Of a stretch of 64,000 nucleotides of DNA, positions 170-59,799 are shown piece after piece (the stretch's first letter is position 1; the number at the start of each line of letters is the position of its first letter). The notes below the pieces were generated by a model that worked only from the letters and a program-made list of their open reading frames with translations, did no database searches and had not been told where the DNA came from. The translations under genes and the position numbers were made by a program. This DNA comes from a virus: positions 1 to 64,000 of the IMG/VR virus record IMGVR_UViG_3300032229_000798; one strand, written 5' to 3'.

Positions 170-1987
170 TTAGAAAACAAAATTGATTTTTATGTCAACA
201 TTCGGGTTTTTAATTTCGTAGATTTCATCATAAGCAACAAAAATTGTTTGATGTGCGCTGGTATCAATTTGTTTTGTCGAAGCATCAATAAAAGGCATGG
301 TTGTTTGATTGACTGAATAATTTCCACCGACCTTGTTGAATATCTTTATTTGGGTTACGTTTAATACGTTACCGATATTATTTAATGACTCAATCAAGCT
401 GGCCATGTAGATGTTGTTTCCAAAATACATTTGCTCATTGAAGAAGTCTGTTATTTGTTGGACGGCGGATTTAAGAATTTCAACCCTGTCAGAAAGTTTG
501 TTAATATAGAGGGTAGCTTCAACTCCCACGTTAATAATTTTTCCATCACGAACCAATATGTAATCATTGATACTTTTAAATTTTGAAAGATATTCTGCTA
601 TGTTTGTTTTTAATGTACTGGTAGAGTTGTTTGTCAGTTTTGAGTTTTGGTCAACACCACAAATAACTATTTCGATTTTATTATCATTCTTTGCAACAGA
701 TGTGCGATAGGGAGAACCGTAGTTACCAGCCATCAGGCTAACCCTACTGTAATAATCCTGAAGAGTTATACATCTGTTTTGAGAAGCGAAATTATATTTG
801 ACAAGGTTTCTAAGTTCTGGTATCGAAAGTTCGTCTCTGCCACCGAGTGCTGGTAGTGGGTTATTTACTCTCAAAGAACCTTTTACTTGATTATTCTTGG
901 TAGCGTTGGTTCCCATGACGATAATATTGACCGTATTAACACTTGTCAATATGTTTGCACCAGCGTTCGTTCTAAGCCCGCCACCTGTTCGATACTTGAT
1001 AAAAAGTGTAGTGTTCGACCTCGGAATTTGACCTAAACTAAGATTGTTGATTTTATTGTCTAACTGTTCAAATAGCAAATCTGTGTCTGAAACATAATCA
1101 CTAAAAAAAGATGTGTCCTCGACACCGTTTCCAAAACGGACAATACAAAAACCTTTGTCTGTGTATTCAGTCATAAACTTTTTGTAGACCTTCTCCCATT
1201 TGCCGACCATAATGGAATCATTATCTGTCATCATTTGAGGTTTAGCCATAAAGACTTCCTTTTCTGCAAGGGAATCTACTTCATACCAAAGATTGGCTGG
1301 GTCAGTCCATTCAAGGATGGTAGGGAACTGATTGTAGTTCGTGCCATCCAAACTGATAATACTGTCAACACTTAATACGTCGTTGTCGGGTAAAACAATT
1401 TCCAAAAATGGTTTTACCTCTTCTGGTGTAACAACCTTTTTAAAATATTTTGTAACACCATTGACTACCAATTCCCTTTTCGTGATAGTATATGATAAAA
1501 TAGTGCCAGTGTTATCAATATTCGGAATAATTGTTCTGTTTGGAACGCCACTTTGTGAATAAGCAGAAGAAAAGTCTATATCATTCAATGATTCAAAAAG
1601 CAATCCACCCCCAGCAATTTGTGCGCCCCTTACAATCAAAGGACAATATGAAATATCAAAACTATCACCAAGCACTGGGACATCCACAGAAAAATCACAT
1701 ATTGTGATGGACGGCGATTTTGAGGGGATTTTTAAACCATAAGTCCTTGCGATTGCATATAATGACCTTCGTTCTTGTGCATAATCAATTTGTGTTTCTT
1801 GAAAAACCCTGTCAGTATTAAAAGACAACATATCTCCAACCGCAGCGTTCAACTCCAAAAGCATCATACCAATGCTTGCATCATTAAAGTCGACATAGTA
1901 ATCAGGGTAATTGGCTTTAACGAAGTTAATCAATTCACTACGAATTGAACGGAAGTCACGGCTATAATAATTTATCTTTTTTTCCAT
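170..1987 (-). CDS. Baseplate wedge protein, T4 gp6 / baseplate-J-like
   Basis: The 605-residue product has the typical start of gp6-like wedge proteins: a helix of the form FRSIRSELINFVKANYPDYY, then DFNDASIGMMLLELNAAVGDM and a segment ending in ERRSLYAIARTYG (roughly residues 10-85). A later block around residues 385-440 (NFASQNRCITLQDYYSRV, then an IEIVICG strand) matches the conserved core of baseplate J proteins. In T4, gp6 dimers tie the wedges into the inner baseplate ring and take part in sheath contraction. Length is close to T4 gp6. It is preceded by a late-type box. It carries one antisense copy of the TGGACGGCG word at 1708, read as SPS. Confidence 0.85.
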   Translation of the reverse strand: MEKKINYYSRDFRSIRSELINFVKANYPDYYVDFNDASIGMMLLELNAAVGDMLSFNTDRVFQETQIDYAQERRSLYAIARTYGLKIPSKSPSITICDFSVDVPVLGDSFDISYCPLIVRGAQIAGGGLLFESLNDIDFSSAYSQSGVPNRTIIPNIDNTGTILSYTITKRELVVNGVTKYFKKVVTPEEVKPFLEIVLPDNDVLSVDSIISLDGTNYNQFPTILEWTDPANLWYEVDSLAEKEVFMAKPQMMTDNDSIMVGKWEKVYKKFMTEYTDKGFCIVRFGNGVEDTSFFSDYVSDTDLLFEQLDNKINNLSLGQIPRSNTTLFIKYRTGGGLRTNAGANILTSVNTVNIIVMGTNATKNNQVKGSLRVNNPLPALGGRDELSIPELRNLVKYNFASQNRCITLQDYYSRVSLMAGNYGSPYRTSVAKNDNKIEIVICGVDQNSKLTNNSTSTLKTNIAEYLSKFKSINDYILVRDGKIINVGVEATLYINKLSDRVEILKSAVQQITDFFNEQMYFGNNIYMASLIESLNNIGNVLNVTQIKIFNKVGGNYSVNQTTMPFIDASTKQIDTSAHQTIFVAYDEIYEIKNPNVDIKINFVF

Positions 1988-2002
1988 TTCAGAATTTAAT
2001 CT

Positions 2003-2010
2003 ATAAATAT
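2003..2010 (-). promoter_or_regulatory. Late-type promoter candidate (ATATTTAT) for the gp6-like gene
   Basis: Read on the minus strand the box is ATATTTAT, 16 nt before the ATG at 1987. The same octamer at nearly the same distance precedes most virion operons in the window. Confidence 0.55.
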
Positions 2011-2033
2011 TTTATATAAAAATCGGATTTTAT

Positions 2034-2065
2034 TTTGTTTTTTAATCTCCGCAACATTACCTTTG
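2034..2065 (+). promoter_or_regulatory. Host-type (Bacteroidota sigma) promoter for the 2085 gene
   Basis: TTTG at 2034-2037 and TACCTTTG at 2058-2065 are separated by exactly 20 nt. This matches the known Bacteroidota -33 TTTG / -7 TAnnTTTG promoter. The start codon lies 19 nt downstream. Confidence 0.75.
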
Positions 2066-2084
2066 CAGCTAAAATTTTAAAACT

Positions 2085-4221: not shown

Positions 4222-5531
4222 CTGATAAATCCAGCCAAGGAGGTTATTTGTAAAACATAGAACTTTAATTGTTCCTGTTGCTTTTTTATATTACTTTCTG
4301 CAATCAATTTTGTCAACTCCCTTGTGATAATCGTGACCAAATATCTGACAACTGCACCCAGAATATGGTTTTTTACTATATCGAATATAAAGTTCTTATG
4401 TTCTTTGAAAAACCCGACAAAGCTGACATCCACATCAACTTTCTTAACCATTTTCCTAAACAACTTTATAAACAAGATTTGTTTGGGTGAAAATAATTTT
4501 AAAGTTATTGACTTGGTTATATTCCTGAAAAACTCCAAGAATATATTATTTTGATAAGAGCCTTTGTCGGACGGCGAAACTGTTGGGGAGGTCTGGTTTA
4601 TCAGGTAATCGAAATTGACATTATAAATATCTTCGTTATACTGACTGACATTTACGAGGTCGTCAACAAAACCTTGCAAGAGGTTATAATCGTATTTTAC
4701 ATAACTTAATTCACAGTCAACATATTCAAAATAACCTTCTTTCTTTTGTTTGATTCTTCTTTCAATTTCTTCATCGTCGAAGCTATAAAAAGAATCATCT
4801 ACCGTAACATCATCAAATATTTTATCAAGAAGGATGTTAAACTGCTCTCTATTTTTCAATCCCCTTTTTGAAATCGCATTTGAAGCTAAAGAACTTAGCG
4901 TACCAAAAATACCATCGACAAAATCAGAGATAATTGTAACATCATTGAAAAATTGAACTTTGCTGAAATAAGCATTGACAAAATCATAAACAGTTTTTCC
5001 CTGAAAACTTGGGTCCAGTTTTATGTAGAAATTTTGATTGGAATAACTAACCAAAAGAATATCGTTCCAATTATACTCAACACCTGGATTATTGATTGCC
5101 TGATAAAGCAATTTATTCAGGTTGTTTTCATAGTCTTCATAATAAAACTTTCCGAGTTCACTATCGGGGTCAATCTTCAAGACTTCAAAAAAATCAATTT
5201 CTTTGACACTAAAACTAACTCCTGTAAAAAACTCATCAGATATTTCAACGTCAACAGAACAGAATATATAATCGACAATATTCTGTTTGAAATATGAAAT
5301 CAAATCCGCAGATAAAGACTTTAATTCGGTTAAAAGAAAAAGTTTAAATTCATCTTTAACCTTTTGCCCCCCAAAGAAAATCCTGAATAAATCCAGAGTA
5401 AACTCTAAACTATTCCTCGGTTTAGAAATTGAGGGGAGAGAATTAGTAAACGAGATATTGGTGAAAGCCTCGTTTGTAATCTTCAACCCCTCAATTTTAC
5501 CCAATAAAATTTGTTTGGGGTCAATCGGCAT
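4218..5531 (-). CDS. Unknown virion-associated protein (437 aa)
   Basis: A 437-residue protein rich in Phe, Ile, Asp and Lys with no signal peptide and no motif I recognise. It is chained by short overlaps to its neighbours (11 bp with the 5928 gene, 4 bp with the 4221 gene) inside an operon ending in a baseplate OB protein. The operon starts at a late-type box, so a tail or baseplate role is likely but inferred. An antisense near-copy of the dispersed motif (CGGACGGCG, 4568) encodes SPS in VSPSDKG. Confidence 0.7.
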   Translation of the reverse strand: MPIDPKQILLGKIEGLKITNEAFTNISFTNSLPSISKPRNSLEFTLDLFRIFFGGQKVKDEFKLFLLTELKSLSADLISYFKQNIVDYIFCSVDVEISDEFFTGVSFSVKEIDFFEVLKIDPDSELGKFYYEDYENNLNKLLYQAINNPGVEYNWNDILLVSYSNQNFYIKLDPSFQGKTVYDFVNAYFSKVQFFNDVTIISDFVDGIFGTLSSLASNAISKRGLKNREQFNILLDKIFDDVTVDDSFYSFDDEEIERRIKQKKEGYFEYVDCELSYVKYDYNLLQGFVDDLVNVSQYNEDIYNVNFDYLINQTSPTVSPSDKGSYQNNIFLEFFRNITKSITLKLFSPKQILFIKLFRKMVKKVDVDVSFVGFFKEHKNFIFDIVKNHILGAVVRYLVTIITRELTKLIAESNIKKQQEQLKFYVLQITSLAGFIR

Positions 5532-5928
5532 TTAAAAGTAGATTGTTTTTCAGTGCTTGTCCTCTCAAGAACTCCAAATCTTTTTCTGTCAAAATTACAT
5601 CATCCGATGTTTCATTTTCCGAAACATCCTCCACAGCAGTTCTTTGTGACATTATGGTCGTACCATAGAACTTTACCAGTTCGATTTTGAGTTTGTTATT
5701 GGTGTTGATAATGTCAAGTGCTTTATTGTTAAGAGCGTCCAAAATCTCTGTTTCCTTCAATGTCCTGACAGTATCTTCTTCCCCTTCGACTTGTCGTCTT
5801 TCGGTTATTTCATCTTCTCTTTTACGGATAAATGAAAGTGCCCTTTTTTCCTGACGTTCAAGGTCAATAAAAGTTGTCTGAATTTTTTCTAAAACGCCGT
5901 CCAACGACGCAGGTATTTTGGATTTCAT
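5521..5928 (-). CDS. Small coiled-coil protein, unknown
   Basis: 135 residues, highly charged and predicted helical throughout (long runs such as LERQEKRALSFIRKREDEI). It is first in the operon that continues with the 437-residue gene and baseplate proteins. It could be an assembly chaperone or baseplate component; no family assignment is possible. A late-type box lies 18 nt upstream of the ATG. It contains one sense TGGACGGCG copy in SLDGV. Confidence 0.65.
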   Translation of the reverse strand: MKSKIPASLDGVLEKIQTTFIDLERQEKRALSFIRKREDEITERRQVEGEEDTVRTLKETEILDALNNKALDIINTNNKLKIELVKFYGTTIMSQRTAVEDVSENETSDDVILTEKDLEFLRGQALKNNLLLNAD

Positions 5929-5945
5929 TTTCTTGTTTTTTATTT

Positions 5946-5953
5946 ATAAATAT
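5946..5953 (-). promoter_or_regulatory. Late-type promoter candidate (ATATTTAT) for the 5928 operon
   Basis: The octamer read on the minus strand lies 18 nt before the ATG at 5928 and is followed by an A-rich leader without a Shine-Dalgarno sequence. Confidence 0.6.
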
Positions 5954-6718
5954 TCAAAAGTCATCTTCAAGGTCACTCAAATAATTTTGTTTCCTTGCGA
6001 CATAAAATTCTTTGTAGAATTTCAGACTCTGGCCTATTTGTGTCGTATTTAAAAGCGTCATGTTTCTGATACATTCAAGGACGAAGTTCTTGTTATACTT
6101 TTTAGTGTCGTCAACGTAAATTCGTTCCCAATTCTGGGTTATTTCCAATATCGCTACGCCGACCTTAACATCTGAATCCTTTAGACCGTATTTTAAAATA
6201 TTATCTTCCAATAAAAGGTCTTGTATTTCATCCACGATTATTTTAAAAAATTCATGTAGGAGATTATCTTCAGAATATTCTTTCTCTTCTATATCATCCC
6301 CTTGAGTAATGCTTTTGTAAACGTCTTCGTATAAGACTACTTTCTTTTTATCTTTCGTCTCTTTTTTCCTGTTATTTTGTAATCTCCGTTTTATAATCGT
6401 ACCAAAGTAAGAAAATGATTTTTTTCCTCTACTTGGGTCGAACATCGAGATTTTCATGTGCAAAAAAGATAAAGTATCGTCAAACAATTCTTTATAAGAC
6501 ATTTTCGCGCTATATAATTTATACCTGTTGATGATAGATTCAGTCATCTTCTCTAAAGGAAATTTCAGGTATTGATTATATATCTCGTTCCTTTCTGCTT
6601 CAGTGGCCGCTGTCAAATATCTAACAACTGCTTCCTCTTGCTCATTTGAAAAATATTCAGATGTTTTTACATTTTCATCTTGTTTCTCATTTTTTGATTT
6701 TCTACCTCTTTTTGCCAT
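5954..6718 (-). CDS. Phage sigma factor, T4 gp55-like (late transcription)
   Basis: A 254-residue basic protein. Residues 74-120 resemble sigma region 2: YKELFDDTLSFLHMKISMFD, then KSFSYFGTIIKRRLQNNRKK, where the F-x-Y-F-x-x-I-x-R-L core matches the core-binding and -10-recognition helices of small phage sigma factors such as T4 gp55. No region 4 is evident, as in gp55. It would redirect host RNA polymerase to late promoters. The ATATTTAT boxes found before virion genes are the natural candidate target (inference). It stands just upstream of the glycosyltransferase block's 3' end, separated by a hairpin terminator. Confidence 0.72.
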   Translation of the reverse strand: MAKRGRKSKNEKQDENVKTSEYFSNEQEEAVVRYLTAATEAERNEIYNQYLKFPLEKMTESIINRYKLYSAKMSYKELFDDTLSFLHMKISMFDPSRGKKSFSYFGTIIKRRLQNNRKKETKDKKKVVLYEDVYKSITQGDDIEEKEYSEDNLLHEFFKIIVDEIQDLLLEDNILKYGLKDSDVKVGVAILEITQNWERIYVDDTKKYNKNFVLECIRNMTLLNTTQIGQSLKFYKEFYVARKQNYLSDLEDDF

Positions 6719-18127: not shown

Positions 18128-18144
18128 TTTCAATTTATTTATTA

Positions 18145-18152
18145 ATAAATAT
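18145..18152 (-). promoter_or_regulatory. Late-type promoter candidate (ATATTTAT) for the 18127 gene
   Basis: Perfect octamer on the minus strand, 18 nt before the chosen ATG. It is part of a near-palindromic AT tract that could also serve the divergent 18159 gene. Confidence 0.55.
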
Positions 18153-18158
18153 AAGCAG

Positions 18159-25784: not shown

Positions 25785-26117
25785 TTATTTTTCGCCGTCC
25801 AACTCAAAAGTCTCTGGATTCCTGCCTTCCTTATTGGCAGTAGCATAATAAACTGCTTTGCCTCTCTTTTCTCCATATTGTTTTTTCATGCTTGCCATAA
25901 CTTCTTTGTTATATTCATTCAAAGGATATTGCAATGCTTTTTTTGCCATGTGTGCAAGGTAAATCACATCTTCAAACTTATTTTCTTTCATCGCGAGATA
26001 AATCTTTTCTTTAATAATGTCCAATTCCACTGGATTCATTTCTTTCTTGCCAAAATTCCCCATATTTTCTTGTATTTCATTATAAAGCATTTCACTAATT
26101 TTTATCTTCTTGTTCAT
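25785..26117 (-). CDS. Conserved-type phage protein of unknown function
   Basis: 110 residues. The C-terminus (MKKQYGEKRGKAVYYATANK, then EGRNPETF) is a motif I associate with many small phage proteins of unknown role (YGxKKGxxVFYAxxNK). The N-terminal part is helical and Met/Lys-rich. A perfect late-type box lies 20 nt upstream, so it is probably expressed late. A sense TGGACGGCG copy at 25793 forms the last codons (ELDGEK). Confidence 0.65.
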   Translation of the reverse strand: MNKKIKISEMLYNEIQENMGNFGKKEMNPVELDIIKEKIYLAMKENKFEDVIYLAHMAKKALQYPLNEYNKEVMASMKKQYGEKRGKAVYYATANKEGRNPETFELDGEK

Positions 26118-26125
26118 AATTCCTT

Positions 26126-26133
26126 ATATTTAT
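26126..26133 (+). promoter_or_regulatory. Late-type promoter candidate (ATATTTAT) for the endolysin
   Basis: Perfect octamer on the plus strand, 20 nt before the ATG at 26153. It faces a second copy in the opposite direction at 26137-26144 in the same 35-bp intergenic gap. Confidence 0.65.
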
Positions 26134-26136
26134 CAT

Positions 26137-26144
26137 ATAAATAT
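26137..26144 (-). promoter_or_regulatory. Late-type promoter candidate (ATATTTAT) for the 26117 gene
   Basis: Perfect octamer on the minus strand, 20 nt before the ATG at 26117; divergent partner of the box at 26126-26133. Confidence 0.65.
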
Positions 26145-26152
26145 AATGCGCT

Positions 26153-26656
26153 ATGGAAAATGAAAACGAAAAGAGTGTGCAGTATGTGGACGGCGAAATG
26201 CAACTTTCAAAATATTTGAAGGTAAAGGATTTCACATACTCACCAACAGCAGTGACAAATAATATTGATAACAGGTTGCCAGTTTCTTTACTGGAAGATG
26301 CAAAGAAAATCGCGGCAATCTATGACCGAATTTACGACCAATTTAAAGGCAAGGTTAAATTGAACTCTGGATATAGAAGTCTTGCACTCAATAGGAGGGT
26401 AGGAGGCTCCACCACATCCCAACACGTCAGGGCACAAGCTATTGATGTGGACGGCATAAACGGTGTTAAAAACTCCCAGATTTTAAGTTGGGTATTGAGA
26501 AACATAACCTACAACCAAGTCATCCATGAATACGGGACTGCAACAGAACCTGCTTGGGTTCATATCGGATTTGGAACCAAAATGCAGTTTTTGAAAATCG
26601 GTGTTAAGGGAACGAAAGCGTTAACTAATATGCTTGGGGAGGAAGTTGATATTTAA
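26153..26656 (+). CDS. Peptidase M15 endolysin (peptidoglycan peptidase)
   Basis: 167 residues with the M15_3 zinc-peptidase signature: LNSGYRSLALNRRVGGSTTSQH, then AQAIDVD and AWVHIGF. Likely metal ligands are H91, D98 and H137. Such enzymes cut peptide bonds in peptidoglycan stem peptides and act as lysins. No signal peptide is present, so it would need a holin; the small membrane protein at 10868 is a candidate. It has its own late-type box. Its stop overlaps that of the gp25-like gene by 4 bp. Two motif copies: exact at 26187, near at 26448. Confidence 0.87.
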   Translation: MENENEKSVQYVDGEMQLSKYLKVKDFTYSPTAVTNNIDNRLPVSLLEDAKKIAAIYDRIYDQFKGKVKLNSGYRSLALNRRVGGSTTSQHVRAQAIDVDGINGVKNSQILSWVLRNITYNQVIHEYGTATEPAWVHIGFGTKMQFLKIGVKGTKALTNMLGEEVDI

Positions 26657-29330: not shown

Positions 29331-31724
29331 TTAAGACCCACAGGCTTCACATCCTTCAGGATTATCCAAACTGCAAGATATTCCCTCTTCTGAAGTATAT
29401 TCTTTTATCGCAGTTGGTTTTTGCACACTGCTAAGGTCTATACCAAGACCTGCAATAGCTTCAACAGCAGCCTTAGTTCTTAAATAATACATCCCTGTTT
29501 TCAAACCTTTTTTCCAACCATGAAAATGTGCGGCTGTAAGTTTTGCGGAATTTACACCTTCGATAAACAAATTCATTGATTGTGATTGGTCAACAAAAGC
29601 ACCTCTATCTGCTGCCATATCTAATAAATCTCTTTGTCTAAGTTCCCAAACAGTCAAATACAATTGTTTCAAATCTGCTGGTATTTCCATTATACTTTGA
29701 ACAGAACCTTTTGCTGCAATCAAATTTAATCTCATTTTTTCATTCCATAACCCGCGTTCTTGCAAGTCTTGAACCAAATGCTTATTAACTACGGTATATT
29801 CTCCAGATAAAGTCCTTCTCTTATATAAGTTACTTGTAAATGGTTCAAATGCTTCATTATTGCCTAATATCTGTGCAGTAGAAGCAGTTGGCATAGGAGC
29901 TACCAAAAGAGAATTTCTGACCCCGTGTACAGATATATCTTTTCTAAGTGAATCCCAATCCCACCTTTCAGAAGGTGTTTCTCCCCACATATCAAATTGC
30001 AGTATTCCTTGTGACATAGGTGATCCTTCATAAGAAGAATAAATACCTTCAACTTTAGCAATATCACAAGATGCTTTTAATGCAGCATAATAGATTGTTT
30101 CAAAAATTTCTCTATTAAGTTTTTTTGCTTCTTGTGAAGTAAATGGCAGTCCCAACATGGCAAAAGCATCTGCCAACCCTTGTATTCCTATTCCAATTGG
30201 CCTATGTCTAAGATTAGAAGTTTTTGCTTCCTTTACTGGATAGTAATTCACATCTATCACACGATTAAGATTTTTTGTAACTTGATAAGTTACTTCATAT
30301 AATTTCTCATGGTTAAATGTTTTTTTACTTTTTTCGTTCCTTTTTGCTCCATTATTTTCCAAATATTTTGGAAGCGCAATAGATGCCAGATTACATACTG
30401 CAATTTCATCTGCACTTGTATATTCCATTATTTCAGTACACAAATTGCTGCCATGCAAAACACCAAGGTTCTTTTGATTATTCTTTCTATTTGCATGGTC
30501 TTTGTATAACATATAAGGGGTGCCTGTCTCTATTTGTGATTCTATAATCTTTTCCCAAAGTTCACGTGCCCTTATTTTCCTTCGACCTCTTCCTTCTTTC
30601 TCATAAGTCTCGTAAAGTGCTTCAAACTTTTCTCCATAATTGTTATGCAATTCAGGTGCTTCATCTGGTGAAAAAAGCGTCCAATCTCTGTCCTCTTCTA
30701 CTCTTTTCATAAACAAGTCAGGAACCCACAACGCGAGAAAAAGGTCTCTTGCTCTTAATTCTTCTTTACCATGATTTTTGCGCAAATCTATAAAGTCAAA
30801 TATATCAGAGTGCCAAGGCTCCACGTAGACTGCTATGGAACCTTTTCTCTTTCCTCCGCCTTGATCCACATATCTTGCAGTCTCATTGAATACTTTCAAC
30901 ATAGGAATTATTCCATTTGAAGTACCATTTGTACCTTTTATATATGCGCCTTTTCCTCGTATGTGATGTGCATGGACTCCAATACCACCAGCATTTTTAG
31001 AAATCATTGCACAATCTGATAATGTTTTGTATATTCCTTCTAAAGAATCATCCATTATATTGAGGAGAAAGCAAGATGAAAGCTGTGGTTTTTTTGTTCC
31101 AGCATTATACAATGTCGGAGTAGCGTGCGTAAAAAATCCTTGAGAAAGAAGATTATATGTTTTAATCGTTTCTTCTATGTTTCCTTGCCATATTCCACAG
31201 GCTACTCTCATCCACAAGTGTTGAGGCCGCTCCACGACTTTAGAATCAATCTTTAACAGGTAAGATTTCTCTAAAGTTTTGAAACCAAAAAAATCAAAAT
31301 TAAAATCTCTATCGTAATTTATCGCTTCTTCTAATTTTTCTTTATTCTCCTCTATGAAAGAAAAAACCTTATCGTCTATAAGAGATGCAGATTTTTGTGT
31401 CCGTTTATCAAAATATTCGTGAAGATCCTTCATCGTTTCATAAAAAGATTTCTTAGTGCTTTTATGTAACGAAGTAATAGCAATTCTGCTTGCAAGAGTA
31501 GAATAATCTGGGTGATAAGAAGTCATAGATGCAGCGGTTTCTGCTGCCAAAGCATCAAGCTCTACACTTGTAACTCCATCATAAACTCCTTGTATTACTT
31601 TTTTTGCTATCTCTAAAGCATCTACATAGTCAGTATTTAAACCATAAGTTTGTTTCTTTATTCTCATGGTTATCTTATCGTACTTAACTGGTTCTTTTGA
31701 GCCGTTTCTTTTTTGTACTTGCAT
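29331..31724 (-). CDS. nrdA: Ribonucleoside-diphosphate reductase, large subunit (class I)
   Basis: 797 residues. An N-terminal ATP cone ([20 protein letters not shown]) is followed by the ten-stranded barrel with [23 protein letters not shown] and [13 protein letters not shown] carrying the active-site cysteines and the N-x-C-x-E finger loop, then [19 protein letters not shown]. The C-terminus ends CEACGS, the mobile Cys pair reduced by thioredoxin. It reduces NDPs to dNDPs for phage DNA synthesis. Follows nrdB by 20 bp. No TGGACGGCG copy occurs anywhere in nrdA, nrdB or thioredoxin. Confidence 0.98.
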
Positions 31725-52906: not shown

Positions 52907-55900
52907 TTAGATATTATCGAAAGTTGCACTATCGTTAGTAAGTGTAAAACCAATATTAATCTCTTCCAGTGCCAGTGTAGGTTGAATCAAAATCTTGCCG
53001 TTCAATTGGTTTGTTTCGTAAGCACTTTGACTGTAATCCAACTGGATTCTGAAGTTGATAATACCCCTATCGTTACGAATATTTGCCAAAATCGGGTTTA
53101 CAAGTTGTTCAAACTGTCTGCGAACGGTTTCATCATTCTGCTCAAAGAGAAGATTCACAGATACGTCTGCGATAAGCTGACGCACATAAATCATTAGCCT
53201 GCGGACATTGATTCTGTCAAGAACCGTCTCTTCAATCTGGAGGGTTTTATTACCCCAGTTTGTAACGACGCCTGCATCCCTCCACATACTGTTAATACGG
53301 CCTCCGTATAATGTATCCCTTTCGTCTGCTGTCGGATTCTTAACGACATCCACAAATACGCTGCCACCACGCTTTTTACCGCTTGGGGCAAACCATACAC
53401 GCGAAACCCTGTCACTTACAGCATACACCCTTGGAAGGTCAACACTTGCTGGCACATAAACGTAGGTGTTGTTTTCAGTGTCATTGTAAATACAATCGTA
53501 TGCGTAAGTTGCAGCATAAGATGTAGAATAAAGACCGTCCAACCTGTCAGAAATCGTTTTTGCGCTGAATGGAATACCGTCTGCATCCCTTGTAGGAGTA
53601 TCAGTGATATAGAAGGCATCGCAACGAACTTCTTCCAACATCTCTACCATTTCTTCAATCAGATTTGAATTGTCGAAAGTATTGATATTTGGTGTTACAA
53701 CGAGGTTATATTTAACCAGTTCTGGGTTGGCAATAACCCTGATTCCTTTCAGGTACGCATAGTAATCTGAATTTATAACCGTTGAAAATTCGCCGTCGAA
53801 ATCCTCCAAAACATAACTGTCAAAAGCTCCTGACTGAAGACCAAGGATACCGTTTGTACCGTTCATGGTATATTGATCCCCGATACTTCTGTTACCTGTT
53901 GTAAGACGGTGAATATCCCAACCATCGAATCCACCAAAGAATGCCATTGTGAATTTACGGGAGTTCAGTTTTTCGTATGTGGTTCCAACAAGGTCAGCAT
54001 CATTTCTAAACTCATTCACACCCACCTCAAACAGAATACTGCCAACGCCGTCCACCAAAGCACTTGAAGCATCTTTGTCCATGTGGAAGCCTTTTGTCTT
54101 TCCAGTGAAAGACAATGTGTTAACAGAAGGTGCGCCATGCCAATCGAAGAGGTCTTGGTCGTACCCGTCATTACTGTTGAATCCGAGATATTCATAACGG
54201 ACTTTATCTGTGGTCGCATAAGCGGTTTTATATTGGGCGATAGGTGATTTTGCACAATCACCATAATCTACTACAGGATAACCCTCGAAACCAGCAGGGA
54301 AAGCATCATAAACACAAGTAGCAGCTACATCAACACTGATATAAAGCGATTTTTGTGGGTAAATGTCATTCAATGCCTTACCACCAATCACACGTGCGAT
54401 ATAGTTGTTACTCTGCACATCCAGTGAACAATTCACAAACTGCTCCAAAATAACTGGATTTTTGTCTGTGTCGTTATAGCTGCGAATCAAAACATCAAAC
54501 AAACGACGGTCTGGGCGAATATTCACAAGACTTACCTTCACATAACGGTTAGATGAATCACCGTCACCGAGTGTCAGGAATTTAAACAAACGCACGACCT
54601 TGTTTCCACGAAGTTCTGATACAACATAAGGTGTTTCTGCACCCTGATATTGTTGCTTGTAATTGAAAAGGGTTGTGTTATGGCAAATAGTGGGCTTAAT
54701 GCAATAGATTTTATCTTGTGCAACGAGATTATCAAACATCGTCTGATACAATTCGGAAATATAAAGCGGAGAATCATTCTCACAGCAATTTGCACGAACA
54801 CCGAAGACTTTGTTAATGTAATTCTTTTTGCGCTTGTCAAGTGATACGATGTAAGAAAACTCGACACCATCTGTACCAGTACCAGTCAACTTGAAATCAT
54901 CATAAGGTTTGATTGTCTGTCCTGCTACAAGCGGCTCAATAAGAATATTTGTATTTTTAACCCTGAAATTGAGTTCTTCGTTTCCGTTATATGAACCCAC
55001 ACTGCGAAGTCCGCAAACAATCATGTCCTCATAAGAAGTGATTCCGCTTGCTGTAAGTTGTCTGGCATTTCCACTCAATTGAATAGTGACAATACCTGAA
55101 GGTATTTGAATTTCTGTTGACGTAGAACCAGACTGGAAAACAGGTGTGCTGATAACAGTTGTGCCTGTTACAATAGTGTATCCTGTTCCGTTGATTCCTT
55201 CACAATCATAAACGACACTGTTTGAACCGAGTTCACAGATTTTGTATTGTGCCCCGTTGAGAATATCTCCGTTCGGAAGGGTAATAGTACCGTTCAAAAT
55301 GGTGATACTATCATCCATGTTGTGGGTAATTGTACCGCCTTTTACTACAATGATTCCTGCACTTACTGGCTCTACTTCACTCGAATTTACGTCAACGATT
55401 ACAATAGGTGTCGCTACTGTGATATTGAGCGTAGAACCGATTGTTTGAGTTCCAGCACTGAATTGAACGTAACAAGTAGTTGTGGTTGCGGTTTGTGTCA
55501 CATATCCACCAGAAATAGAAGTTCCTGTCAAGCAGATGTATTGATCGTCACGCTGGGTTACATTGGCTGTAAAACGCGCACTTGAAAACAAGCCGTCACA
55601 ATCTGAAACGAAAGCATCGAGGCTGTTGAAATTCAGTGTCGTTCCAGTAGCGACATTATATCCACCCAAATCTTCAGCGGTCAAGACACCAGAATCAAAC
55701 ATATCCTGAATCGTAGTGTTGCTAAAGCTACCAGAAGTCAAAACACCGTTTGCATACTGAATTTCACCAGTAAAAGAGCCTGTTGCTCCTTGGACGATAG
55801 TGTTGGTATCTACATTCGAACCGATAGTAATTGACCAAAGGTCGCCAGCATCGTAACCAGAAAGACCAAGTACACGGCAAATATATGCCTCATTCGACTC

Positions 55901-56158
55901 CTGAAGGAATTGCTTGGCTGTATATGCACCCTGGAATTTAAGTTGGTTGGTGTTTTTATATTTGCATGGGTTCAGTGAACCGAACTTAGCTGAAAATTCG
56001 TTGTAATTTGACACCCTTGTTACATCGAAAGCCGAACCGTATTCAAATTCACCCATAATCATCAGTTTGGTTAAGGCAAATTGACGTTGGGGGGTGAATG
56101 ATAAATCGCGTTCAGAAAAGTTTACAGAGGGAGCTACCCTTATTCTATTATTCGCCAT
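52907..56158 (-). CDS. Tail sheath protein, T4 gp18-like, enlarged
   Basis: 1083 residues against about 660 in T4. The N-terminus (VAPSVNFSERDLSF, LMIMGEFEYGSAFDVTRV, AKFG, AYTAKQFL) and C-terminus (DAGVVTNWGNKTLQ, RINVRRLMIYVRQLIADVSV, QLDYSQSAYETNQLNGKILI) are clear sheath signatures. Extra length lies mainly at about 118-370, a Thr/Gly/Val-rich beta region likely forming one or more surface domains. It contracts to drive the tube through the envelope. One exact motif copy (54046, LVDGV) and variants at 53533 and 53791. Confidence 0.92.
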   Translation of the reverse strand: MANNRIRVAPSVNFSERDLSFTPQRQFALTKLMIMGEFEYGSAFDVTRVSNYNEFSAKFGSLNPCKYKNTNQLKFQGAYTAKQFLQESNEAYICRVLGLSGYDAGDLWSITIGSNVDTNTIVQGATGSFTGEIQYANGVLTSGSFSNTTIQDMFDSGVLTAEDLGGYNVATGTTLNFNSLDAFVSDCDGLFSSARFTANVTQRDDQYICLTGTSISGGYVTQTATTTTCYVQFSAGTQTIGSTLNITVATPIVIVDVNSSEVEPVSAGIIVVKGGTITHNMDDSITILNGTITLPNGDILNGAQYKICELGSNSVVYDCEGINGTGYTIVTGTTVISTPVFQSGSTSTEIQIPSGIVTIQLSGNARQLTASGITSYEDMIVCGLRSVGSYNGNEELNFRVKNTNILIEPLVAGQTIKPYDDFKLTGTGTDGVEFSYIVSLDKRKKNYINKVFGVRANCCENDSPLYISELYQTMFDNLVAQDKIYCIKPTICHNTTLFNYKQQYQGAETPYVVSELRGNKVVRLFKFLTLGDGDSSNRYVKVSLVNIRPDRRLFDVLIRSYNDTDKNPVILEQFVNCSLDVQSNNYIARVIGGKALNDIYPQKSLYISVDVAATCVYDAFPAGFEGYPVVDYGDCAKSPIAQYKTAYATTDKVRYEYLGFNSNDGYDQDLFDWHGAPSVNTLSFTGKTKGFHMDKDASSALVDGVGSILFEVGVNEFRNDADLVGTTYEKLNSRKFTMAFFGGFDGWDIHRLTTGNRSIGDQYTMNGTNGILGLQSGAFDSYVLEDFDGEFSTVINSDYYAYLKGIRVIANPELVKYNLVVTPNINTFDNSNLIEEMVEMLEEVRCDAFYITDTPTRDADGIPFSAKTISDRLDGLYSTSYAATYAYDCIYNDTENNTYVYVPASVDLPRVYAVSDRVSRVWFAPSGKKRGGSVFVDVVKNPTADERDTLYGGRINSMWRDAGVVTNWGNKTLQIEETVLDRINVRRLMIYVRQLIADVSVNLLFEQNDETVRRQFEQLVNPILANIRNDRGIINFRIQLDYSQSAYETNQLNGKILIQPTLALEEINIGFTLTNDSATFDNI

Positions 56159-59703: not shown

Positions 59704-59723
59704 CGAATTTTTTTTTGTTAAAA

Positions 59724-59731
59724 ATAAATAT
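59724..59731 (-). promoter_or_regulatory. Late-type promoter candidate (ATATTTAT) for the 59703 unit
   Basis: Perfect octamer on the minus strand, 21 nt before the ATG at 59703. Confidence 0.6.
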
Positions 59732-59759
59732 TTTTGTTTTCAGTTTCCGAAATAGTTCT

Positions 59760-59767
59760 TATCTTTG
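59760..59767 (+). promoter_or_regulatory. Host-type promoter -7 box for the primase-helicase gene
   Basis: TATCTTTG followed by CAGC, 32 nt before the ATG at 59800. A TTTG lies at 59733-59736 but the spacing is 23 nt, longer than the 20 nt of the best examples. Confidence 0.6.
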
Positions 59768-59799
59768 CAGCACTGTTTAACAATCTAAAACACGGTAAC

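Follow-up and report, generated by a model that had tools for sequence, protein, structure and literature searches.

In a 64,000-nt stretch of viral DNA (the window; positions 1 to 64,000 of IMG/VR record IMGVR_UViG_3300032229_000798), we found that the 35-bp gap between an M15-type endolysin gene and its divergent neighbour is probably a bidirectional late promoter, a reading to which we give a probability of about 0.7. Its two ATATTTAT boxes, which face each other from opposite strands, would be read by a gp55-type holoenzyme in one orientation at a time. The phage itself is a T4-like myovirus, probably with a Bacteroidetes host, the host being suggested by a promoter signal described below. 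None of 50,697 phage records was matched when 25,000 window bases were searched as nucleotides, and the naming therefore rests on proteins. The gene calls were mechanical (long ORFs, mostly with ATG starts), and the gene denominators given below are approximate.

The gap between the endolysin gene and its neighbour

The intergenic gap (26118-26152) is exactly 35 bp long and reads AATTCCTTATATTTATCATATAAATATAATGCGCT. It is bounded on the left by the ATG of a minus-strand gene for a 110-aa protein of unknown function (25785-26117), which has no PHROG or Pfam family, and on the right by the ATG of the plus-strand endolysin gene (26153-26656; phrog_894 endolysin, 1.4e-24; Peptidase_M15_3, 2.6e-17). 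Each strand carries one late-type -10 box, TATTTAT, at 26127-26133 on the plus strand for the endolysin gene side (within TTATATTTAT, 26124-26133) and at 26143-26137 on the minus strand for the side of the 110-aa gene (within TTATATTTAT, 26146-26137). The two boxes are carried by the arms of a perfect 23-bp dyad (26124-26146), the inverted repeat TTATATTTAT-CAT-ATAAATATAA, with 10-bp arms, a 3-bp centre and its centre at 26135, the midpoint of the gap. Counted from the last base of each TATTTAT, the A of the ATG is reached after 20 nt (26153 on the plus strand, 26117 on the minus strand), as the initial annotation had noted for one box on each strand. Its observation of paired boxes is thus confirmed, and in a somewhat stronger form than stated. 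It had also placed each box over the upstream side of the other, which is wrong, as each lies on the downstream, start-site side of its partner. It had further taken the symmetry as support for both the box and its spacing. The box is indeed genuine and strand-specific, but the equal spacing follows from the dyad being centred in the gap, so that spacing and symmetry are a single fact and not two.

Shuffling the gap with its dinucleotides preserved gave at least one box in 10,037 of 50,000 sequences, both boxes in 616 and both at an equal distance in 23, while a 10-bp perfect dyad with a loop of 3-8 nt arose in 64 of the 50,000. In the related record G001 the dyad is identical, and the sole changes in the gap are three, at 26148-26150. 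Because the endolysin genes of the two records are 97% identical (487/504), that side of the gap is little informative, and only the side of the 110-aa gene, where 229 of 339 aligned columns are identical (68%), informs on conservation. A search with the endolysin, which picks up only close relatives, returned a single viral locus, so that the exact gap could be traced to G001 alone. In L127-L131, viewed without alignment, the stretch next to the phosphoesterase gene appears different. The 110-aa protein has relatives in 44 viral loci, which match mostly its residues 65-96 (the C-terminal part, ...KQYGEKRGKAVYYATANK...), and these loci were left out of the promoter comparison. Beyond the endolysin gene, G001 carries about 570 bases (29418-29985) before a gp25-like gene that are absent from the window, where the corresponding point adjoins 26656.

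A self-complementary sequence of this kind might also act as RNA, as a hairpin or terminator in read-through transcripts, which we regard as the least probable of the explanations considered. The transcript can form a 10-pair A-U stem, with -7.7 kcal/mol for 51 nt. Against this, the z-score is only -1.71, 14 of 200 shuffles fold as well, and the stem is made purely of A-U pairs. The gap hairpin had no Rfam match up to E 0.1, and no terminator-like site was found in 26000-26300.

The TATTTAT box and its candidate reader

By its distribution over the genome, the box is a real, strand-specific, promoter-like element tied to late-type genes. Ten of the 60 window genes have a sense TATTTAT whose end lies 15-21 nt ahead of them, compared with a mean of 0.17 and a maximum of 2 in 500 shuffles, and the antisense word occurs at this distance before none of the 60. 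The same placement was found before 13 of 119 genes in G002 (shuffle mean 0.77) and 4 of 74 in G004 (mean 0.45). A count of upstream words that presupposed no motif ranked ATATTTAT first among 8-mers in the window (8/60 genes against 0.29 expected), G001, G002 (18/119 against 1.50), G003 (6/31 against 0.23) and a piece of phage Mel-JY01 (9/41 against 0.45). The word is enriched in G004 as well (5/74 against 0.68), though not as the top word. As a control of method and strand, a T4 piece gave TATAAATA as its top 8-mer (10/57 against 0.48). When the sense ATATTTAT and TATAAATA were compared 8-60 nt upstream, they preceded 9 and 3 of 60 genes in the window and 3 and 10 of 57 in the T4 piece. In Flavobacterium phage immuto, TATTTATA precedes 19 of 189 genes (1.40 expected), beside another, stronger word class; the most enriched upstream words there (L151-L154) are TTTAGGTATC-like or TATTTAGGTATC-like and form a second class beside the late box.

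Single boxes stand before structural genes of the window, such as the tail sheath gene (52907-56158, minus strand; phrog_23, 3.4e-42), with a box 19 nt before its ATG, and the gp6-like baseplate wedge gene (170-1987, minus strand; phrog_6, 1.2e-19), with a box 16 nt before its ATG. For the sheath gene we entered 62 of 79 loci, those with a match starting near residue 1, and dropped 2 with fewer than 60 bases upstream; the remaining 60 gave 25 distinct upstream regions, or 22 groups at 80% identity. The results showed that all 25 regions contain ATATTTAT, in relatives with 36-100% protein identity, and that the box lies 18-19 nt from the ATG in the three nearest relatives and 28-48 nt from it in the others. 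Of the 14 upstream boxes in the window, 10 fall at 15-21 nt and the others at 4, 40, 49 and 55 nt. The 20-nt spacing stressed by the initial annotation is therefore typical and not fixed. A 44-row box-aligned profile, with rows chosen by TATTTA[TC], has no strongly conserved upstream column except an A preceding the box (36/44), and it contains no conserved -35 element. The window sheath protein is 1083 aa long (659 in T4), with its best sheath-family stretch at residues 792-1080. We found no description of a TATTTAT phage late promoter in the literature, in a search that covered published work only partly.

A second upstream signal in these genomes, TAHHTTTG, bears on who reads the box. It equals the -7 element of F. 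johnsoniae promoters, whose final G is described as nearly invariant (PMC6847099), and from this identity we infer a Bacteroidetes host. The gap word TATATTTA fits TAHHTTTG at every position but that last G, so the boxes might be ordinary host promoters, read by the host primary sigma factor as a variant of the -7 element, and the two genes would then not be late-specific. This is improbable on several grounds. The missing base is the nearly invariant one. The two signals mark disjoint genes in the window, 11 with the late box, 11 with TAHHTTTG and none of the 60 with both; in G002 the counts are 22, 17 and 1 of 120, and in G004 they are 6, 12 and 1 of 74, the scored ranges being 13-30 nt upstream for the late box and 8-80 nt for TAHHTTTG. 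The late-box genes lean to structure and include those for the gp6-like wedge, the sheath, a weak hub match and the endolysin, with several of no known family, whereas the TAHHTTTG genes lean to replication and include those for DNA polymerase, a 3'-5' exonuclease and a glycosyltransferase. Furthermore, the box has no conserved -35 region and is also found in Mel-JY01, a phage of Microcystis, which does not belong to the Bacteroidetes. In two further divergent gaps of the window (1988-2084 and 59704-59799) one strand carries a late box and the other TAHHTTTG, and there late and early genes apparently stand back to back.

The reader proposed for the box is a gp55-like late sigma factor of 254 aa, encoded on the minus strand at 5954-6718, previously unannotated and recognised by profile matches and its predicted fold. 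It was found through a single-genome search and a family profile. In the single-genome search, the ORF matched phrog_234 (late sigma factor) weakly, at 2.9e-4; scanned alone against PHROG, it matched no family at E 0.001 and no sigma family up to E 1. The phrog_234 model reached E 1 or better in 7 of 12 records and also matched in 7 of 14 control genomes. The family profile was built from eight sequences (window, G002, G004, G008, L170, immuto, LR756508 and Mel-JY01), four of which reach phrog_234, at best with 9.2e-4. When this family was aligned to six gp55 sequences by hhalign, the probability was 93 and E was 3.5e-7; its best PDB sequence match was T4 gp55 (E 0.0058), and the reverse search with the family profile in T4 found gene 55 (E 1.8e-4). 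These results indicate that the protein is a homologue of gp55, remote at 13-18% identity.

The predicted fold (mean pLDDT 73) has sigma factors as its nearest structures. T4 gp55 (7d7c_F) was the second structural match, with Z 10.5 over 132 residues and rmsd 7.3, a score below the caution line of about 13 for helical models. Foldseek with the whole model gave mostly sigma factors in its top rows, at a best E of 0.079 and with 0 of 199 at E 0.001 or better. Another family, phrog_12791, was rejected as the sigma identity: its only matches were in T4 and in two weak, stop-containing frames, and 5954-6718 was not among them. Both immuto and Mel-JY01 have the sigma homologue together with the box; their counterparts are annotated as hypothetical proteins. 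Of the T4 models for the sliding clamp and the coactivator, phrog_223 (clamp, gp45) matched only in T4 (1 of 12 records), PF02916 passed its cut-off in no record but T4 (1 of 10) and gave a 13-bit match in G008, and phrog_254 (coactivator, gp33) matched only in T4 (1 of 10), in sets where most records are fragments and the gp45 and gp33 proteins diverge. Next to the sigma gene, between it and 5521-5928, the window has TATTTATAAATA at 5941-5952, in which opposed boxes overlap.

Face-to-face boxes in relatives and in T4

The whole record of the window phage (66,198 bases) contains two exact pairs of the form TATTTAT N0-10 ATAAATA, and 20 shuffles of the record contained none. The second pair (18136-18151; plus-strand box 18136-18142, minus-strand box 18145-18151) lies in the divergent gap 18128-18158, with its boxes 17 nt from the TTG start of a 547-aa gene (plus strand) and 18 nt from the ATG of a 147-aa gene (minus strand). 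The rightward gene apparently starts with TTG (LAYINSN...), and likewise its counterparts in G002 and G004. Across the five closest records (two pairs each in the window, G001 and G002, and one each in G003 and G004), all eight exact pairs are flanked on both sides by ORFs of 100 aa or more that begin 17-23 nt from the respective box, in a count that accepts ATG, TTG or GTG starts and carries no shuffle control of its own. The eight pairs represent three divergent loci that are unrelated by blastp: the endolysin gap 26118-26152 (window, G001), the 18128 gap (window, G001, G002, G004; larger protein 59-80% identical), and an orthologous gap at G003 32104 and G002 113199 (flanking proteins 88% and 55% identical). 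At the latter two loci, diverged relatives retain both boxes, with inter-box distances of 2-5 bp and 4-6 bp respectively.

This variation bears on what the dyad is. A perfect 10-bp dyad in a divergent gap has the usual look of an operator, and the present one resembles such a site, where a dimeric phage protein that represses or activates both genes would bind instead of a polymerase. We consider this very improbable. A single arm precedes many genes at a similar spacing with no second exact arm, the arms elsewhere are 2-6 bp apart at a distance that differs between orthologous gaps, and the 110-aa neighbour matches no regulator family. A varying inter-box distance is expected of two promoters rather than of one dimer site.

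It is also conceivable, although unlikely, that the gap is a one-way late promoter with a fortuitous mirror box, in which the second arm is just the A-rich stretch that lies downstream of any late box and melts. Half-partners with one mismatch are indeed common downstream of single boxes in some genomes (11 of 22 in G002 and 10 of 19 in immuto, with 2 of 10 in the window and 0 of 5 in G004), because that segment is A-rich. In the more distant immuto, G006 and G007, moreover, none of six exact pairs has genes on both sides. Every exact partner in the five closest records, however, sits between genes that begin 17-23 nt from the two boxes. Neither gene flanking the endolysin gap has TAHHTTTG within 80 nt upstream, and G001 retains an intact dyad despite only 68% identity in the 110-aa gene. 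We read the A-rich half-partners as raw material, from which exact pairs have been selected where two genes diverge.

The same layout was found in T4 itself. In the 165,000 bases examined, the T4 box forms two face-to-face pairs (0.1 expected from shuffles), at genes 4/53 and at inh/segE, both divergent. We found no published description of these pairs, which were identified here by sequence. Their gaps are 47 or 49 bp long, and their boxes have near-equal spacings of 29/27 and 29/28 nt, compared with 20/20 here. They differ from the endolysin gap in the box itself, which is that of T4, in the distance between the 7-base boxes (7 and 6 bp, against 3 here), in their longer leaders and, for the 4/53 gap, in a Shine-Dalgarno-like sequence on both sides. 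Box words arranged back to back, 13 bp apart, were seen in three other divergent gaps, G002 122594-122664 (23/23 nt to the called starts) and G008 95098-95143 and 116174-116226 (7/14 and 16/12 nt).

Predicted initiation and its meaning

According to the sources cited here, T4 late promoters lack a -35 element and are read by gp55 through an 8-bp box that precedes the start by about one turn (PMC2988020, PMC7892883). In the present phage, the host core RNA polymerase with the phage gp55-type sigma factor would, late in infection, recognise the -10 box ATATTTAT with no -35 element. As far as its sequence goes, the element can be read in both orientations on overlapping DNA, and the face-to-face boxes in a perfect dyad would let the holoenzyme bind in either. 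When TATTTATA is aligned to TATAAATA at -13 to -6, following T4 geometry, the predicted starts fall at about 26140 (plus strand) and 26130 (minus strand), with an uncertainty of 1-2 bases. They would be about 10 bp apart, each within the other's box, and the transcripts would diverge without overlap, with leaders of about 13 nt. T4 gp55 complexes are reported to open -12 to +2 (PMC7892883, PMC2988020), and the corresponding melted regions, predicted at 26128-26141 and 26129-26142, would be practically one bubble. Two polymerases could not open nearly the same DNA together, and mutual exclusion at any instant is thus a reasonable inference, separate from any effect on output. Coupled firing, the other possibility named in the initial annotation, found no support in the analysis. 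Summed over repeated firings and many genome copies, the gap would yield both the endolysin and the 110-aa protein.

In several respects the box resembles a T4 late promoter as described in the sources: it is a single AT-only 8-bp -10 box with no -35 element, standing before structural genes (PMC2988020, PMC7892883, PMC1524935). A gp55-related sigma factor is encoded in the genome, and the segment downstream of the box is AT-rich, as in T4. Unlike in T4, the box is (A)TATTTAT and not TATAAATA, with two central positions differing if TATTTATA is aligned; the sigma factor has about 250 aa and not 185, with an extra C-terminal part; and gp33 and gp45 were not found by T4 models in records that are mostly fragments. 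We take the box to work like a T4 late promoter and not as the T4 consensus promoter. A precedent for a diverged gp55 together with a shifted box is Aeh1, an Aeromonas phage, in which late promoters read CTAAATA and gp55 is reported to be strongly diverged (PMC1524935), although the shift there is a different one.

Bacterial bidirectional promoters offer a second comparison. As these are described, -10 symmetry allows two orientations, and one binding event blocks the other (PMC10268837, PMC12825309). Usually, a single near-symmetric sigma70 -10 element acts for both strands there, and the starts are separated by 18 bp (PMC10268837, PMC12825309), whereas the endolysin gap has two complete phage late boxes, both before protein genes, and predicted starts about 10 bp apart. 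Bacterial bidirectional promoters are defined by opposite starts 7-25 bp apart, a distance that T4 geometry would put at about 10 bp here. For five E. coli bidirectional promoters, basal activity was reported to be insufficient for competition, and one side could be repressed once the other was substantially activated (PMC12825309). On replicating phage DNA, a late promoter may reach the strength needed for such competition.

Judged from the sequences compared, the layout and its logic are known from T4, and what is new is the different box with its diverged sigma factor. Tentatively, and at somewhat less than even odds, we propose that a T4-like branch comprising this phage, immuto, Mel-JY01 and many metagenomic relatives has exchanged TATAAATA for TATTTAT as its late-promoter word, together with a gp55 that is larger and diverged, and possibly with no recognisable gp33 or gp45. 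Part of this branch would build two-way dyad promoters that melt about the same 14 bp, tying lysis to a neighbouring gene by either-or initiation. If so, the diverged gp55 and the shifted box would be a test pair for how a small sigma factor reads -10 DNA, taken from phages whose hosts' promoters differ from those of E. coli, and the motif could be used for marking late genes in many unannotated phages. The face-to-face pairs of this phage and of T4 offer small natural systems in which to ask whether polymerases in opposite orientations compete for a single melted region.
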